Below, in pieces: positions 4,612 to 41,393 of a DNA stretch of 41,393 nt (the first letter of the stretch is position 1; the number at the start of each line of letters is the position of its first letter). The stretch comes from an uncultured Veillonellaceae bacterium (GTDB lineage Bacteria; Bacillota; Negativicutes; Selenomonadales; Selenomonadaceae): the NCBI GenBank assembly GCA_902801565.1, contig CADCIX010000018.1, forward strand, positions 1-41,393. Reading direction: 5' to 3'. The notes beneath the pieces are model-generated. The model searched no databases. It was not told the origin of the DNA and saw nothing but the letters and a program-made list of their open reading frames with translations. Position numbers and translations under genes: made by a program.

Positions 4612-5313
4612 TCAAACCGTCTTCCGGGTGAGAATGGTAGAGAGATAGTTCACAGGCTCGTTCTTGTGCTGCCCGATATCGTCAATCCGATGCTCATCGG
4701 GAAGCCCGCAGCGGCTCACCATGACGGCCTGCCTTGCCATATCGTTTTCCTCAAGGAGATCGGCAATCTCCGGAAAGTTCTTGTAAACCTTCATGAGCAC
4801 CACGTTGTCCGAAATCTCCACGGCCTTCCGTATGCGCTCCAGATCCGCTGTCGCAGGGATGATGGAAAGGATATCGTTGCCCTCCACGATGGGATATCCC
4901 AGCTTGCTTCCGATGGCGGCAAAGGCGGGAATCCCCGGTATGGTTTCGATGGTGACATCCTCATGCTCCAGCAGGCGGTAAACATAGATGTAGGTGCTGT
5001 AGAACATCGGATCCCCCAAGGTCAGGAAGGCAACATTCTTCCCCGAGCGCAGCAGCCCAAGAATCTCCGCCTTGTTTGCCTCCCATGCCTCCGTGGAATC
5101 CGCGAAGTCCTTCACCATGGGAAAAACCTGATAGACAATCTCCACATCCGGCTTAAGGTAAGGCTTTGCAATGGTCAGGGCGACGCTGCCGTCCTTCTTC
5201 TCCGTCTTCGGCGCAATCAGCACATCCACCTTCTCGATGGCATGGATCGCCTTCATTGTCAAAAGTTCCGGATCCCCGGGCCCAACACCAATCCCGTAAA
5301 ATATTCCGCTCAT
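4612..5313 (-). CDS. cobI: Precorrin-2/cobalt-factor II C20-methyltransferase (CobI/CbiL)
   Basis: A 233-aa SAM-dependent tetrapyrrole methylase that adds the C20 methyl group in the corrin pathway. The start MSGIFYGIGVGPGDPELLTMKA gives the glycine-rich loop typical of the CobI/CbiL branch. FLTLGDPMFYSTYIYV, ETIPGIPAFAAIGSKLG and VVLMKVYK are the further family blocks. ATG at 5313 has GGAGG 5 nt upstream; the in-frame codon at 5355 lies in a leader hairpin and is rejected. It is the first gene after the cobalamin riboswitch and precedes the importer. CbiK in this window chelates cobalt anaerobically, so the physiological substrate is probably cobalt-factor II (inference). Confidence 0.92.
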   Translation of the reverse strand: MSGIFYGIGVGPGDPELLTMKAIHAIEKVDVLIAPKTEKKDGSVALTIAKPYLKPDVEIVYQVFPMVKDFADSTEAWEANKAEILGLLRSGKNVAFLTLGDPMFYSTYIYVYRLLEHEDVTIETIPGIPAFAAIGSKLGYPIVEGNDILSIIPATADLERIRKAVEISDNVVLMKVYKNFPEIADLLEENDMARQAVMVSRCGLPDEHRIDDIGQHKNEPVNYLSTILTRKTV

Positions 5314-5451: not shown

Positions 5452-5518
5452 AGATCTCATTGATTACGGCAATGCCGCAAAATCCCCGTCCCCATCCTTC
5501 GTAGGTCAAATGGTGATT

Positions 5519-5668
5519 GACAGACAGGCAGTTCTCCTGACTCCGGCTCATCAAGGCCTCATACCTTCCCGGGCAACCCCAGTGGCGTATCATGAAGCCT
5601 CTCCCCATTACAGTGGCGTGACCGTACCGGCATCCCACCGGTTTCTCTATTAAGCCCACGGCACCTGT
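5519..5668 (-). promoter_or_regulatory. Cobalamin riboswitch aptamer
   Basis: Read on the minus strand it has the conserved blocks in order: AGGTGCCGTGGG at the 5' end, CCGGTGGGATGCCGGTACGG, CGCCACTGTAAT, the B12-box region CGCCACTGGGGT, GGGAAGG, GATGAGCC, and AGTCAGGAGAACTGCCTGTC at the 3' end. Order and spacing match the AdoCbl-type cobalamin aptamer. A promoter lies just upstream and an intrinsic terminator downstream, so high cobalamin should stop transcription of cobI and the importer. Confidence 0.95.
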
Positions 5669-5692
5669 CCCCTTCATGAAGTTTTCCCTATC

Positions 5693-33078: not shown

Positions 33079-33125
33079 AGTCCACGTGAGATGTAAATAT
33101 GAGCACTTACAATAGAAACATTCAA

Positions 33126-33374
33126 TGATGGGAACGAGTAATCCTCTGACGGAGCTCACAGCGAGCCGGGTATGGTGCAAGCCGGCAGCCGAGCAAAGGA
33201 TGAAAATCCTCCCTGAGAAGTGCGGCTGAATCCAGGATGCATTCCCAGTAAGCCGCAACGGCTGCTCCCCGTTAACGGAGACGCGCATGATGGTGCGCTG
33301 ATGAGTGCCATGCTTCGGCATGGAATTTGGGTGGTATCGCGGTCTTTAGCCCGTCCCTTTTAGGGGCGGGCTAT
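33126..33374 (+). promoter_or_regulatory. T-box leader, probably tRNA-Ile responsive
   Basis: Stem I begins near 33128. The loop E pair AGTA (33137-33140)/GAA (33202-33204) is bounded by the ATCCT/AGGAT helix, and ACAGCGAGCCGGG plus TATGGTGCAAGCC form the distal AG-bulge and apical parts. The T-box GGGTGGTATCGCGG is at 33329-33342; a terminator follows. The specifier is at 33205-33208 (AATC): AAT (Asn) or ATC (Ile). The UGGU bulge pairs with a discriminator A, which fits tRNA-Ile and not bacterial tRNA-Asn (G73), so Ile is preferred. A small CCATGC-TTCG-GCATGG hairpin is inserted before the T-box. Confidence 0.92.
33348..33372 (+). terminator. T-box-controlled terminator
   Basis: A 10-bp stem (33348-33357 with 33363-33372, one G-T pair) with a 5-nt loop followed by ATTTATTTT. 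Its 5' arm is close to the T-box, so antitermination by uncharged tRNA is expected. Confidence 0.85.
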
Positions 33375-33427
33375 TTATTTTACCCTTATTTATCTTATTC
33401 TTATACAAATTTTAGGAGGTCTTATTT

Positions 33428-34411
33428 ATGGAAATGTTAAAGAAGATGAGCCACACGCTGGCATCCCACACGGCTCCCTTTGTCATCGCAACAGCGGTGG
33501 TGGCATTCTTTGCCCCGTCCCTGTTCGGCTGGGTGAAGGGCACGAACCAGATTGCGATTCTCTTTGTCATCATGTTCAGCATGGGGCTGACCCTTACAAC
33601 AGAGGACTTCAAATTGCTGGCGAAGCGTCCCCTGGACATCTTCATCGGCGCGGCGGCCCAGTACACGATCATGCCGCTCCTGGCCTATACTCTTTCCAAA
33701 GTGTTCCAGCTTCCCGATGAGATTGCTGTGGGACTGATTCTCGTGGGCTGCTGCCCCGGCGGCATCTCCTCCAACATCATGTCCTTTCTCTGCCGGGGCG
33801 ACGTCCCCTTTTCCGTGGGCATGACGACGGCCTCCACCCTTTTGGCGCCCATCATGACGCCGATGCTGGTTCTTCTCCTGGCGGGAGAGCGCATCGAGGT
33901 TCCGGCAGCGGGCATGTTCCTTTCCATCGTGGAGTCCGTCATCCTGCCGGTATTCGTCGGTTTCCTTCTTAACTATTTTTATGGGAAAAAAGAAGGCTTC
34001 AAGGATGTCCAGCAGGTCATGCCTGCCATCGCGGTCATTGGTCTCGCCCTTATCGTGGGCGGTGTCATTTCCCTGCAGGGAGCGAACTTCTTCACGGCAG
34101 GCGTAGTGATCTTCCTTGCAGTGCTTGCCCATAACAGCCTGGGATATCTTCTTGGATATACCGTCGGACGCCTTACCGGCATGAGCACGGCAAAGAAGCG
34201 CACCATTTCCATCGAGGTAGGCATGCAGAATGCAGGCCTGGCTACGGGCCTGGCCATGGCGCATTTCGCCATCTACCCCCATGCGGCACTGGCAGCGGCA
34301 GTGTCCTGCGCCTGGCATTCCATTTCCGGCACCCTTCTGGCCGGCTGGTTTGCAAAGCGCGACGAAAAAGCGGAGCAGGCAATGCCGGAGGCAAGTGTTT
34401 CGCTGCAGTAA
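33428..34411 (+). CDS. BASS-family Na+-dependent organic anion symporter
   Basis: A 327-aa membrane protein of the bile acid:sodium symporter (BASS) family, with nine to ten hydrophobic segments. Family blocks are FVIMFSMGLTLTTEDFK, VGLILVGCCPGGISSNIMSFL (the crossover helix region) and EVGMQNAGLATGLAMAHF, both near the Na+ and substrate sites. Bacterial members carry diverse acids such as 2-oxoacids or pantoate, so the bile acid name is not informative. GGAGG lies 10 nt before the ATG. The T-box leader ties expression to a charged tRNA, probably tRNA-Ile, which suggests that the substrate is a branched-chain amino acid precursor (inference). Monocistronic. Confidence 0.92.
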   Translation: MEMLKKMSHTLASHTAPFVIATAVVAFFAPSLFGWVKGTNQIAILFVIMFSMGLTLTTEDFKLLAKRPLDIFIGAAAQYTIMPLLAYTLSKVFQLPDEIAVGLILVGCCPGGISSNIMSFLCRGDVPFSVGMTTASTLLAPIMTPMLVLLLAGERIEVPAAGMFLSIVESVILPVFVGFLLNYFYGKKEGFKDVQQVMPAIAVIGLALIVGGVISLQGANFFTAGVVIFLAVLAHNSLGYLLGYTVGRLTGMSTAKKRTISIEVGMQNAGLATGLAMAHFAIYPHAALAAAVSCAWHSISGTLLAGWFAKRDEKAEQAMPEASVSLQ

Positions 34412-36598: not shown

Positions 36599-37123
36599 TC
36601 ATTCCTGCCCCCTCATGAAGACTGCTGTTTCCAGAGTATACTCATGCTTTGTCAGGAAACTCTTTCCCGTCAGCTGCACCTGCATGATATGCGGAGATAC
36701 CATATCACAGCGAAACCTGGTAATATTTACCCGGCCAAAGATGCTGTCCCCGGTCATCGGCATGGAGGGATGATCCACAATCATCCTGCCTTCTCCGTAT
36801 TTCCCGGAATCCTTTTTTGCATAGGTAATGGACATATCCGGCTCCCTTTTCTCCAATGCCGCACGAGATATGTCCTGCCGATAATAGAGGCATACGGAAT
36901 CCCCTTCTGCCAGATGGGTGATTTTTGCATATTCCGCCCGATTCGCATCCTCTACAAGCCGTTCCATCACATAATGCAACTCCTGCTGCAATTCCCAGTC
37001 ACCCTTCTGCCAGCTGACTGTCTTGAAGGACCACAGGATACATCCTCCAAGAGCGGAGAGCAGGAACACGATGACCGGGAGGGATATCAAGGTTTCCAGC
37101 AAAATAGCACCTCTCTCATTCAT
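36599..37123 (-). CDS. PilW/GspJ-like minor pilin
   Basis: A 174-aa prepilin. The start MNERGAILLETLISLPVIVF gives a short leader with the cleavage site after Gly5 and Glu at mature position 5, followed by the long hydrophobic helix. The C-terminal domain resembles GspJ/PilW in length and in ending with a strand region. ATG at 37123 is used since GGGGG lies 9 nt before it; the ATG at 37132 abuts that site. It lies 23 nt after the PilV-like gene. Confidence 0.75.
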   Translation of the reverse strand: MNERGAILLETLISLPVIVFLLSALGGCILWSFKTVSWQKGDWELQQELHYVMERLVEDANRAEYAKITHLAEGDSVCLYYRQDISRAALEKREPDMSITYAKKDSGKYGEGRMIVDHPSMPMTGDSIFGRVNITRFRCDMVSPHIMQVQLTGKSFLTKHEYTLETAVFMRGQE

Positions 37124-37146
37124 CGCTTCCATCCCCCACTATTGAC

Positions 37147-37554
37147 CTATGGAACCGTCGCAACATTCCTGACCATTCTCTCGAAACTGACTCTTCTGGC
37201 TTTTCCTGACTGCTCCCATGCTGCCGTAACCTGCACACGGCAAATTCCCGTTCCGGCATCCAGCGCGGCAACGTCTGCATATACTTCATAGTTCTTCCGA
37301 TTAAGGGACAGCGCCTCCTCCGATCCCAGCCACGACAGCCTTCCCGTGCTGAGTTTTCCCTCACTTCCCTTTTCCGCAACATATGCCATCTGTTCCTGGG
37401 CAAGAAATATCGCTGCAATATGAGCCTTATTGTCGGCATGCATCTGCTCCGATAAACGATATGCCGAAAAAACCCCGGAAAGTGCCATGAGCACCAGGCA
37501 CAACAACAGGGCTTCCAGCAGAAAAAATCCCTTGTCATCTTTCAATATCTTCAT
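37147..37554 (-). CDS. PilV/GspI-like minor pilin
   Basis: A 135-aa prepilin with leader MKILKDDKG, cleavage before FFLLEALLLCLVLMALSG, and Glu at mature position 5. The small C-terminal domain has the VQVTAAW strand typical of GspI/PilV. The ATG overlaps the preceding gene by 4 nt. Confidence 0.75.
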   Translation of the reverse strand: MKILKDDKGFFLLEALLLCLVLMALSGVFSAYRLSEQMHADNKAHIAAIFLAQEQMAYVAEKGSEGKLSTGRLSWLGSEEALSLNRKNYEVYADVAALDAGTGICRVQVTAAWEQSGKARRVSFERMVRNVATVP

Positions 37555-38045
37555 GGCGGTTTCCTATCCACACGTATGCGGCCGGCTGCATCAATGATAA
37601 CGTACCGGTCTGCCCTCTGCGTCCCCATCTTGGAGTACACATGTATCGTCATCACATTCTTTGCATTCCCCCCTTCCTTGAACCTGGCACCCTCTATATT
37701 GATGGGAGATCCCAGAAACACCATCGTCTGGCATATATGTGTCCATCCCTTGAATTTCTGGTATCCGTATCCGCGAACTTCGTAATCTCTATAACGGAAC
37801 TTGACCCAGTAATCATCAGTTGTGGCCGGCCGATTGTCAGGAAACCTTCCAAACCAGCCAGACGCCGTTCGATTGTGCTGCTGTGCCCAACGCAGATCAC
37901 TTGCAAGACATGCCGTCTCGTATTCCACAACGGCCTCCAGCAACAGCTTTTCCCCGACAGTCGCAACACTTCCTATGACCAGCAGAACGGCTGCAATAAC
38001 CACCAATACTTCCATGCAGGAAAAACCTTCCTCTGATGTTCTCAT
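37551..38045 (-). CDS. FimT/GspH-like minor pilin
   Basis: A 164-aa prepilin with leader MRTSEEG and the helix FSCMEVLVVIAAVLLVIGSV, Glu at mature position 5. The rest matches the GspH/FimT type (DLRWAQQHNR, late VIIDAAGRIRV). In related systems this pilin is part of the priming tip complex and in some species binds DNA for uptake. It overlaps the prepilin peptidase stop by 4 nt. Confidence 0.78.
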   Translation of the reverse strand: MRTSEEGFSCMEVLVVIAAVLLVIGSVATVGEKLLLEAVVEYETACLASDLRWAQQHNRTASGWFGRFPDNRPATTDDYWVKFRYRDYEVRGYGYQKFKGWTHICQTMVFLGSPINIEGARFKEGGNAKNVMTIHVYSKMGTQRADRYVIIDAAGRIRVDRKPP

Positions 38046-38614
38046 GGAAAAAATCCCTCATACCATTGCAAGAGCCGGCTGCCGTACAAAAAGGCAATAC
38101 ATCCGCCCATCGAGAGGAATGGGCCAAAGGGAACACGATTCTCCTTCCAATGGCAGCATATCAGGAAGGCTGCTGCAACGCCTCCTGCCAGAAATGACAG
38201 GAAAAGTGCCAGCAACATCATTTCCCATCCCAGCCACAAGCCAAGGACAAAGGCGTATTTCACATCCCCGCCTCCCATTCCCCCGCGGCTTGCCCATCGT
38301 ACAAGAAGCAGGAGCCCACTCCCAAGGAAAGCACCTGCCACTCCATCGAAGGGATCCGCCAGCCATCCAGCAAAGTCCAATGCAGTCCCTATAAGCCCCA
38401 TCGCCAGCAAGAACCGATTGAAGATCAGGCCATAACGAAAATCCATGGCACTGACAAAGAGCATCGATGCCAGGAAAAGGCATCCAAAAAGGAATCGCAT
38501 CCCCGGCACCCCTGCAGCATAAAGCATCGGAACCAGCAGCATCATTCCCAAAAGCACGATTTTTCGCTCAGTCCAGAGATATTTCCAATGAAAACTTCGC
38601 CCAGTCTGTTCCAT
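38042..38614 (-). CDS. Short A24 prepilin peptidase (PilD-like, without methylase domain)
   Basis: A 190-aa membrane peptidase that cleaves the pilin leaders. The two catalytic Asp residues are in SAMDFRYGLIFNR and GMGGGDVKYAFVLG, and the C-terminal ENRVPFGPFLSMG is conserved. It lacks the N-terminal cytoplasmic domain with paired CxxC zinc motifs that methylates the pilin N-terminus; full PilD is about 250-290 aa. It lies second in the operon, so pilins are processed by an enzyme from their own cluster. ATG at 38614 follows AGGTGA; the GTG at 38623 is part of that site. Confidence 0.85.
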   Translation of the reverse strand: MEQTGRSFHWKYLWTERKIVLLGMMLLVPMLYAAGVPGMRFLFGCLFLASMLFVSAMDFRYGLIFNRFLLAMGLIGTALDFAGWLADPFDGVAGAFLGSGLLLLVRWASRGGMGGGDVKYAFVLGLWLGWEMMLLALFLSFLAGGVAAAFLICCHWKENRVPFGPFLSMGGCIAFLYGSRLLQWYEGFFP

Positions 38615-38619
38615 GATGC

Positions 38620-39027
38620 TCACCTGCCAAAGGAGCCCGAGGTTTTTTCATCGCAAACGGCCCTCGTCTGGGATTGCTTTGTATTGTCGCCTGCACCACT
38701 CACAAGCTTGATCGTATAGGCAGTATCCTTGATTTCCACGATTTCTCCACCCTTGAGCCTGCATTTCCCCGTGGGAGGCTTCAGATGGCCGATATCCGTG
38801 ATATAATCCGAGAGGTCTTCCAAGTTTTTCGGAGGAGCGCCTTTCTCCGTTTCGTACATGACGATGGCAGCATCCAGTGTCTGCAAGTCGTTCTGCAATT
38901 TTGCAGTATTCGCTATGGCAATGGAATTCGTGAATTTCGGAACGGCAATCGCCGACAGGATGCCCAAGATGGTACACACCACAAGGACTTCAATGAGTGT
39001 AAACCCCCGTTCTCCCAGGTTTTCCAT
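38620..39027 (-). CDS. Type IV pilin/GspG-like major pilin
   Basis: A 135-aa prepilin: leader MENLGERG, then FTLIEVLVVCTILGILSAIAVPKF, the canonical N-methylation motif with Glu5. The C-terminal domain carries a Pro/Lys-rich GspG-like part with two Cys residues (GKCRLKG and RAVCDEK) that may form a disulphide, and ends near a calcium-loop-like acidic region. It is the first gene of the operon, with GGGAG at the start and its own promoter, as for a highly expressed major subunit. No assembly ATPase (PilB/T) or PilC is inside the window. Confidence 0.85.
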   Translation of the reverse strand: MENLGERGFTLIEVLVVCTILGILSAIAVPKFTNSIAIANTAKLQNDLQTLDAAIVMYETEKGAPPKNLEDLSDYITDIGHLKPPTGKCRLKGGEIVEIKDTAYTIKLVSGAGDNTKQSQTRAVCDEKTSGSFGR

Positions 39028-39308: not shown

Positions 39309-40523
39309 ATGAACGAAACAGCACTGAAATCCTTCCTTGAGGAAACATTTGCCTGGCTTCACTCCCACCCGGAACTTTCCTATGAAGAATATGAGACCAC
39401 AGCCAAGTTAAAGGATCTGTTTTCCAAAGAGCTTATCTGCCTGCTGGATCTTCCTCTGGCAACCGGAGCAGTGGCTGAAATAGGCAGCAAGGACGGGCCG
39501 ATGGTTGCTCTCCGGGCAGATATAGATGCACTGCCCATTGAAGAGGAAACCTGCCTTCCCTATGCCTCCAAGTTCAAGGGCAAGATGCATGCCTGCGGCC
39601 ACGATTTCCACACATCGGCGGTACTGGGAGCAGCCCTGTTGTTGAAGGAAAGGGAAAGCACCCTGCCCGGCAGGGTACGGATTATTTTCCAGCCTGCAGA
39701 AGAGGCTCCCGGCGGAGCCAGAAAAATCCTTGAAACAGGCGTCCTGGAAAATGTTCAGACCATCTTCGGTCTTCATATCTCACCGTTTCTTCCCGTGGGA
39801 AGCCTGGGCCTGAGCCCCGGACCGGTAATGGCAGCGGTGGACAGTTTCATCATTCGTTTTCAGGGCAAGGGCTGCCATGCAGCCCATCCGGACCGAGGGG
39901 TAGATGTCATCTCCCTCATTGCCCACTTCATCAGTGCTGTGCAGACCATCGTAAGCCGCAACACAAATCCCTTTGCGGCAAACCTGCTCAGCATAACCAG
40001 AGTGACAGCTGGCAATACCTGGAATGTGCTGCCGGAAACCGCAGAGCTGGAAGGCACTGCCCGCAGCCTGACCCCGGAGGACCGCCAGCTAATCAAGGAG
40101 AGGCTTTATGCACTGGCCCAGGGAGAGGCATCTGCCTTTGGGGCAGAAGTATCTATCGACTGGCATCAGGGACCGCCTCCCACCACAAACGATGCCTCAT
40201 GGACGGATTTCGCCCGGGAGACGGCCAGGAAACAAGGCTTTGACTTGCAGGAAGCTCCTAAATCGCTAAGCGGAGAGGATTTTGCCTATTACCAGGAGAA
40301 ACTTCCCGGTGTGTTCGCCTCCATTGGAACAGGGCTGTCAGCGCCTAATCACAGTTCCAAATTCATAGCTGACCCAGCCGCCTTGCTGCCTGCGGCAAAA
40401 TACCTGACAGCACTGGCCGAAGGGGCATTAAGGAGACTGACAAAACATGATTGGACAAGGACAGCCAGTGGGCAAAGGATATTGCGGATGCCTACAACTC
40501 AAAGGAATTTGCAGAGTACCTGA
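39309..40523 (+). CDS. M20D amidohydrolase with altered C-terminus
   Basis: A 404-aa metallo-amidohydrolase (hippurate hydrolase/IAA-amino acid hydrolase type), probably cytoplasmic. The Zn/Mn ligand motifs ALRADIDALPI, HACGHDFHTSAVLG, FQPAEEAPGGARKI and LGLSGEDFAYY-like LSGEDFAYYQEKLPG are intact; the small dimerisation domain starts near residue 180. The normal family end would be near LAEGALRRL (about residue 379). The last roughly 25 residues (from TKHDWTRTASG) read a metQ-type gene fragment in the wrong frame, so the native stop is lost. The enzyme may still be active. GAGGTG precedes the ATG. Confidence 0.9.
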   Translation: MNETALKSFLEETFAWLHSHPELSYEEYETTAKLKDLFSKELICLLDLPLATGAVAEIGSKDGPMVALRADIDALPIEEETCLPYASKFKGKMHACGHDFHTSAVLGAALLLKERESTLPGRVRIIFQPAEEAPGGARKILETGVLENVQTIFGLHISPFLPVGSLGLSPGPVMAAVDSFIIRFQGKGCHAAHPDRGVDVISLIAHFISAVQTIVSRNTNPFAANLLSITRVTAGNTWNVLPETAELEGTARSLTPEDRQLIKERLYALAQGEASAFGAEVSIDWHQGPPPTTNDASWTDFARETARKQGFDLQEAPKSLSGEDFAYYQEKLPGVFASIGTGLSAPNHSSKFIADPAALLPAAKYLTALAEGALRRLTKHDWTRTASGQRILRMPTTQRNLQST

Positions 40524-40567
40524 AGAATAACAACAACGGACTTTGGTATGTACCGGAGACGAAGTAA
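40451..40567 (+). pseudogene. 3' remnant of a MetQ/NlpA-family lipoprotein gene
   Basis: In a frame shifted relative to the amidohydrolase, codons 40451-40564 read LDKDSQWAKDIADAYNSKEF, then AEYLKNNNNGLWYVPETK and a stop at 40565-40567. The pattern acidic-S-x-(Y/W)A-K-x-(I/L)ADAY-x-S-x-EF-x-EYL, with a Gly-Leu-Trp end, looks like the C-terminus of a methionine-type ABC binding lipoprotein. No start, signal or remaining ~230 codons exist upstream; that DNA is the amidohydrolase gene. It is most simply a deletion that fused two neighbouring genes. Confidence 0.6.
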
Positions 40568-40574
40568 ATAAGAG

Positions 40575-40618
40575 AGGGGCTGTCGCATGAAGGGTAAAAT
40601 CCTCAGGCGGCAGCCCCT
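40575..40618. other. Hairpin at the insertion sequence end
   Basis: AGGGGCTG (40575-40582) pairs with CAGCCCCT (40611-40618), followed on the plus strand by TTTT. It can end transcription running in from the amidohydrolase. One arm encodes the last residues of the transposase. Confidence 0.6.
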
Positions 40619-41393
40619 TTTCGAGATAAGCAATGCTCTTCCCGAAAATCGAAAGGCGACTTCAACTGAAAAATGGCAACGGGGAACAGATGCTGCCCCT
40701 CTTTTCCCGCCTGTATCTTGTTATGCAGACATGTCATATTGTGCGCCATCGCCAACAGCATCGCTTCCACGAGGACGTTCTTCCTTCCGCGGCTCAGGAA
40801 TCTGCGGAAGGAGAGGTTCCCCTTGGCCTGGGCGAACGAGCCTTCTGCCTGTATGCTCCGATTCACCCGGAGTTCAATGCCCTCCGGCGATGTGAGCCGC
40901 TCCAGCGTTTTCTTCCGTTGCTCCTGGAATTTCTTCGCTACCTCGAACCGCTTGGAGCGCTCCTCCATCGGCGTCTTGGAGCTTCCCGCACGGATGCAAT
41001 CGCCTTTCCTGGGGCAGCCCTTGCAATCCGCACATGCGTACTGCGTCTTCTCGCTGACGTAGCCCGTCCTTGTCTTGCTCTTGCGGATGCCTGTGGCTGC
41101 CAGCTTCTTCCCGTTCGCGCAGGTGTAGCTGTCCGTTTCCGCATCGTAGGCCATGTTCTCCATGCGCCCGATGTCCTTCCTTGCGCTGCGCTTCTTGCTG
41201 GTCTCGTAGTTCGCCGGCTTGATGTAGGCAAGCTGCCCGTTTCCCTCAAGCCACGCGTAGTTCTCCTCACTCTCGTATCCTGCATCGGCCACGATGCGGG
41301 GGTACTTCCTGCCGAAGGTTTCTTCAAATTCCCGGAGGAACGGGATGAGCATCGTCGTGTCCGTGGGCTGCGGCCCCTCCGTCACCCACACGA
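40603..41393 (-). CDS. IS1182-like transposase, C-terminal part
   Basis: About 263 codons, open at the window edge. It contains the second catalytic Asp in RIVADAGYESEENY and the Glu in QAEGSFAQAKGNLSFRRFLSRG. A Cys-rich block between them (YACADCKGCPRKGDCIRAG) is typical of IS1182-type transposases. No frameshift is seen inside the visible part. The frame reads through the window edge, so the GTG at 41391 is not a start. Confidence 0.88.
   Translation of the reverse strand, partial: VWVTEGPQPTDTTMLIPFLREFEETFGRKYPRIVADAGYESEENYAWLEGNGQLAYIKPANYETSKKRSARKDIGRMENMAYDAETDSYTCANGKKLAATGIRKSKTRTGYVSEKTQYACADCKGCPRKGDCIRAGSSKTPMEERSKRFEVAKKFQEQRKKTLERLTSPEGIELRVNRSIQAEGSFAQAKGNLSFRRFLSRGRKNVLVEAMLLAMAHNMTCLHNKIQAGKEGQHLFPVAIFQLKSPFDFREEHCLSRKGAAA

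Follow-up and report, generated by a model that had tools for sequence, protein, structure and literature searches.

Likely scar of an internal deletion in an amidohydrolase-metNIQ operon of an uncultured Veillonellaceae bacterium

In Streptococcus pneumoniae, a gene for a putative N-acyl-amino-acid amidohydrolase (hmrB) is clustered with the genes of a putative methionine ABC transporter as metQ-hmrB-metNP, and this cluster is regulated by methionine (PMC5359408). The locus that we describe here lies in a window of 41,393 nucleotides (the whole stretch of DNA analyzed) from an uncultured Veillonellaceae bacterium; compared with it, the pneumococcal cluster has another gene order and is intact (PMC5359408). 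Closer counterparts are the amidohydrolase-metNIQ operons of Selenomonas ruminantium and Pectinatus (loci L044-L048 and L064), which have the same genes, order, strand, and MetQ subfamily as the window. In the Selenomonas loci L044-L047, moreover, the stop codon of the amidohydrolase gene overlaps the start codon of metN, as it did in the window before the deletion. Relative to these operons, the window lacks metI altogether, metN beyond its second codon, and most of metQ. Pseudogenes that are left when an operon undergoes an ordinary internal deletion show the same read-through from the upstream gene into a 3' remnant of the downstream gene, with little homology at the join. Nothing essential sets the window apart from such remnants, and the overlap of stop and start codons makes the case easy to read.

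We consider it very likely that this locus derives from an ancestral amidohydrolase-metNIQ operon that suffered an internal deletion of ~2.4 kb. The amidohydrolase open reading frame (window positions 39309-40523, forward strand; 404 codons, with a TGA stop at 40521-40523) consists of two parts. The first 381 codons (39309..40451, forward strand, ending in ...LTKHD) are native; they score 348 bits against TIGR01891 (E 6.5e-104; cut-off 153.75), which places the protein among the M20-family amidohydrolases, also match PF01546 (E 7.2e-43), and keep the conserved metal-binding and catalytic motifs (HACGHD, PAEE, GLH, and APNHS). Homology to the family stops at ...AEGALRRL(T), near 40442, and the remainder of the frame (40452..40523, forward strand; 23 codons and the stop) is out-of-frame metQ DNA. 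Its 23 C-terminal residues, WTRTASGQRILRMPTTQRNLQST, are 64% identical to an out-of-frame reading of a relative's intact metQ (L029 802-867), and the tail is therefore not amidohydrolase sequence. This agrees with a preliminary description, in which the gene was said to run past its expected end through about 25 codons of a second gene read out of frame. Relatives with the same C-terminus and no metQ, which would have spoken against that description, did not turn up: the extension was absent from the amidohydrolase ends of the relatives compared. Judging from the conserved motifs, the enzyme is probably still active with its 23-residue tail.

At Rfam gathering thresholds, neither a SAM riboswitch nor a T-box was found 5' of the amidohydrolase gene, and its upstream synteny did not match that of the genus-mates in the stretches compared. 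Upstream, on the opposite strand (36599-39027, reverse), we noted by eye a series of small genes resembling those of pilins or prepilins, their N-termini being of the type IV prepilin kind, together with a prepilin-peptidase-like gene. Elsewhere in the window, a cobalamin riboswitch is present at 5510-5683 on the reverse strand (100.6 bits), and at 33116-34408 a T-box leader (128 bits) precedes a transporter gene, by eye of the bile-acid/sodium-symporter type. In Selenomonas L044, L045, and L047, the amidohydrolase-metNIQ operon has a homologue of this transporter gene as its neighbor, which hints at a related amino acid or keto acid as the substrate.

Read in its own frame, the DNA downstream of the amidohydrolase body encodes the C-terminal end of a MetQ/NlpA-like protein (40454..40567, forward strand; 37 codons at 40454-40564 followed by the native TAA stop at 40565-40567), as had been proposed from the letters of the sequence. 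The translation, DKDSQWAKDIADAYNSKEFAEYLKNNNNGLWYVPETK-stop, matches the C-terminal ends of MetQ proteins from dozens of genomes, with amino acid identities of 82-84% to the MetQ of another uncultured Veillonellaceae (L051) and 70-76% to Selenomonas MetQ; a search of the whole own genome found the remnant at E 3e-15. The fragment thus does match NlpA/MetQ proteins, and not by chance; the opposite outcome would have contradicted the preliminary description. On its own it gives a weak, below-cut-off match to PF03180 (E 0.016; model positions 202-230 of 236) because it is so short. The signal peptide, lipobox, and ligand-binding lobes of a full lipoprotein are gone, with the last 37 codons left, and the fragment is no functional MetQ/NlpA protein but a remnant of one. 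Compared with the L051 metQ, it has 4, 3, and 17 nucleotide differences at codon positions 1, 2, and 3, respectively, which indicates that, over most of its past, this stretch evolved under coding constraint. The bias fits a recent loss, although most of the signal predates the deletion. A 38-amino-acid open reading frame with a TTG start begins 3 bases ahead of the metQ sequence proper.

To recover the ancestral gene order, we scanned for the MetQ subfamily, using one genome per species. Amidohydrolase, metN, metI, and metQ genes were found tightly packed on one strand in Selenomonas ruminantium, in other Selenomonas, and in both Pectinatus species found, and the same intact order, which had been predicted beforehand, also occurs in some uncultured Selenomonadales/Veillonellaceae, in Thomasclavelia, and in others. 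The intact arrangement that a deletion scar presupposes is therefore present in relatives. In Thomasclavelia, mccB and a gene for a PatB-type C-S lyase follow the operon. Genome G029 has a matching metQ, and its amidohydrolase falls into the clade of the window gene; there, amidohydrolase-metN-metI is found close to the end of one contig, and metQ-mccB-patB opens another. No intact operon was seen in the two genus-mates, whose genomes are both incomplete: G001 has an amidohydrolase match with no metNIQ beside it, and G002 (79% complete) has no amidohydrolase match.

Comparison with these relatives also locates the join. In Selenomonas L044-L047, the amidohydrolase ends in ...HD-stop within CATGATTAAG or CATGATTGAG, and the same bases double as the metN start (ATG ATT AAG or ATG ATT GAG); in S. 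ruminantium, the stop of the first gene and the start of the second both fall within CATGATT(A/G)A. The ATGATT of the window (40447..40452, forward strand), with a GGAG ~11 bases 5' of it, is placed alike, within the same CATGATT, and represents the start codon and second codon of metN. These six metN bases separate the amidohydrolase body from the metQ tail: the sequence reads AAACATGATT and continues with GGACAAGGACAGCC, in which metQ codes for (K)-D-K-D-S, so that the junction between metN codon 2 and metQ falls at 40452..40453 (forward strand). This breakpoint is read against relatives and not against the true ancestral sequence, and small later changes are possible. The deletion starts one base inside the amidohydrolase stop codon, and that stop is gone because it overlapped the metN start. 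Missing are metN from codon 3, the whole of metI, and all but the last 37 codons of metQ, amounting to ~2.40-2.45 kb in the closest-matching loci and 2.4-2.6 kb across all eight. The loss of the amidohydrolase stop and of most of a methionine-type ABC locus, both part of the preliminary description, is thus borne out, with ~2.4 kb absent relative to the relatives.

The ancestral amidohydrolase-metN-metI-metQ operon would, most simply in one event, have lost ~2.4 kb internally, starting at metN codon 3 and reaching to ~38 codons ahead of the metQ stop; since then, translation of the amidohydrolase would have continued out of frame through 23 codons of metQ DNA up to the new stop. Several successive deletions would look alike. 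The join shares at most ~1 base, which suggests end-joining or replication slippage as the likely route rather than recombination between repeats.

The assembly of the organism itself (69 contigs, 99.78% complete) contains no other pieces of the lost transporter in searches with metN and metQ. Its next best metQ genes reach only ~32% identity, its next best metN is 47% identical to that of Pectinatus, and a divergent metNIQ is present on contig 13. We infer that the transporter encoded at the window locus has been lost; methionine-type uptake may proceed via the divergent metNIQ. A second amidohydrolase copy, on contig 7, shares 80-81% amino acid identity with the window copy (dN ~0.12, dS ~1.15) and could cover for it. 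In a phylogenetic tree, the two copies stand next to each other (support 95/94) in a clade with those of G001 (same genus), G004, and G029 (support 100/100). The contig-7 copy (L025 4721-7097) lies among sulfur genes, with a gene for a PatB-type C-S lyase directly 3' of it, and the contig also carries an mccB homologue (80% identical to that of G029) at a distance of ~25 kb; this locus could be another broken-up amidohydrolase-metNIQ-mccB-patB cluster. G001 and G004 have other sequence 3' of the amidohydrolase, and none of the contig-7, G001, and G004 copies has the extended C-terminus. An amidohydrolase without adjacent metNIQ is therefore common in the clade, and among the copies seen, only that of the window has a visible metQ stump. 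As a separate observation, in G033, another member of the family, the homologous amidohydrolase gene (contig 39; L030 ~4866-5289) has lost most of its interior and is reduced to its ends plus a short central piece, a decay that is independent of the event in the window.

Beyond the metQ remnant, one end and the 3' part of the transposase gene of an IS1182-family element occupy 40576..41393 on the reverse strand (NF033551, PF13751), where the contig end cuts the element off. The transposase fragment matches NF033551 at E 2.7e-45, below the model cut-off because of this truncation. The IS end, GGGGCTGTCGCA, is the terminal repeat found at either end of an apparently complete copy in G022; in the own genome it occurs just twice, each time at a contig end. 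The preliminary description was correct in placing an IS1182-like end a few bases past the metQ stop, and this proximity (9 bp) invites the idea that the element, on inserting or moving, caused an adjacent deletion; that description had considered help from the element as a possibility. Such a deletion should end at the IS border, whereas here the junction (40452/40453) and the border (40576) are ~123 bp apart, a stretch made up almost entirely of kept metQ, so that direct involvement of the element is very unlikely and this part of the earlier interpretation finds no support. A search of the own genome for the other border of the IS, next to sequence 3' of metQ, found none, and no target duplications could be read. 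The element is most simply seen, from its position, as a separate insertion downstream of the metQ stop; an indirect role, by recombination between copies and later loss, is possible, given that the far IS flank is unassembled.

That the assembler joined two unrelated loci is a concern in a draft genome of 69 contigs, the more so as this contig breaks off within the IS, 0.9 kb beyond the junction. Nevertheless, the two halves are parts of one operon in relatives, in the right order and on the right strand, the junction has, judged by the relatives, no repeat through which an assembler could join, and the missing operon body is nowhere else in the 99.78%-complete assembly; we regard an artefact as highly improbable. 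The extended amidohydrolase could also be a selected fusion, in which the 23-residue tail or the uncoupling from the transporter is adaptive, in keeping with the intact M20 core motifs and with the dN of ~0.12 and dS of ~1.15 between the two copies of the own genome. Yet the tail is out-of-frame metQ, gives no sign of being conserved itself, and was seen in one genome only, and dN/dS mainly reflects the time before the deletion, which makes selection for the fusion extremely unlikely. We give similarly little credence to a further, highly doubtful proposal: that the deletion uncoupled a salvage amidohydrolase from its transporter and became fixed because, with a second amidohydrolase and a second metNIQ at hand, the transporter could be spared, while the new tail altered some property of the enzyme.

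The internal deletion that we favor makes the scar a case of ordinary gene decay, a common phenomenon that is unusually readable here, and it leaves wider understanding unchanged. For annotation, it means that the C-terminus of the 404-amino-acid amidohydrolase is not native and that the metQ fragment is no gene. It also provides a clear example of operon decay, in which one deletion drops a transporter and, owing to the overlap of stop and start codons, at the same time gives the upstream enzyme a different end.
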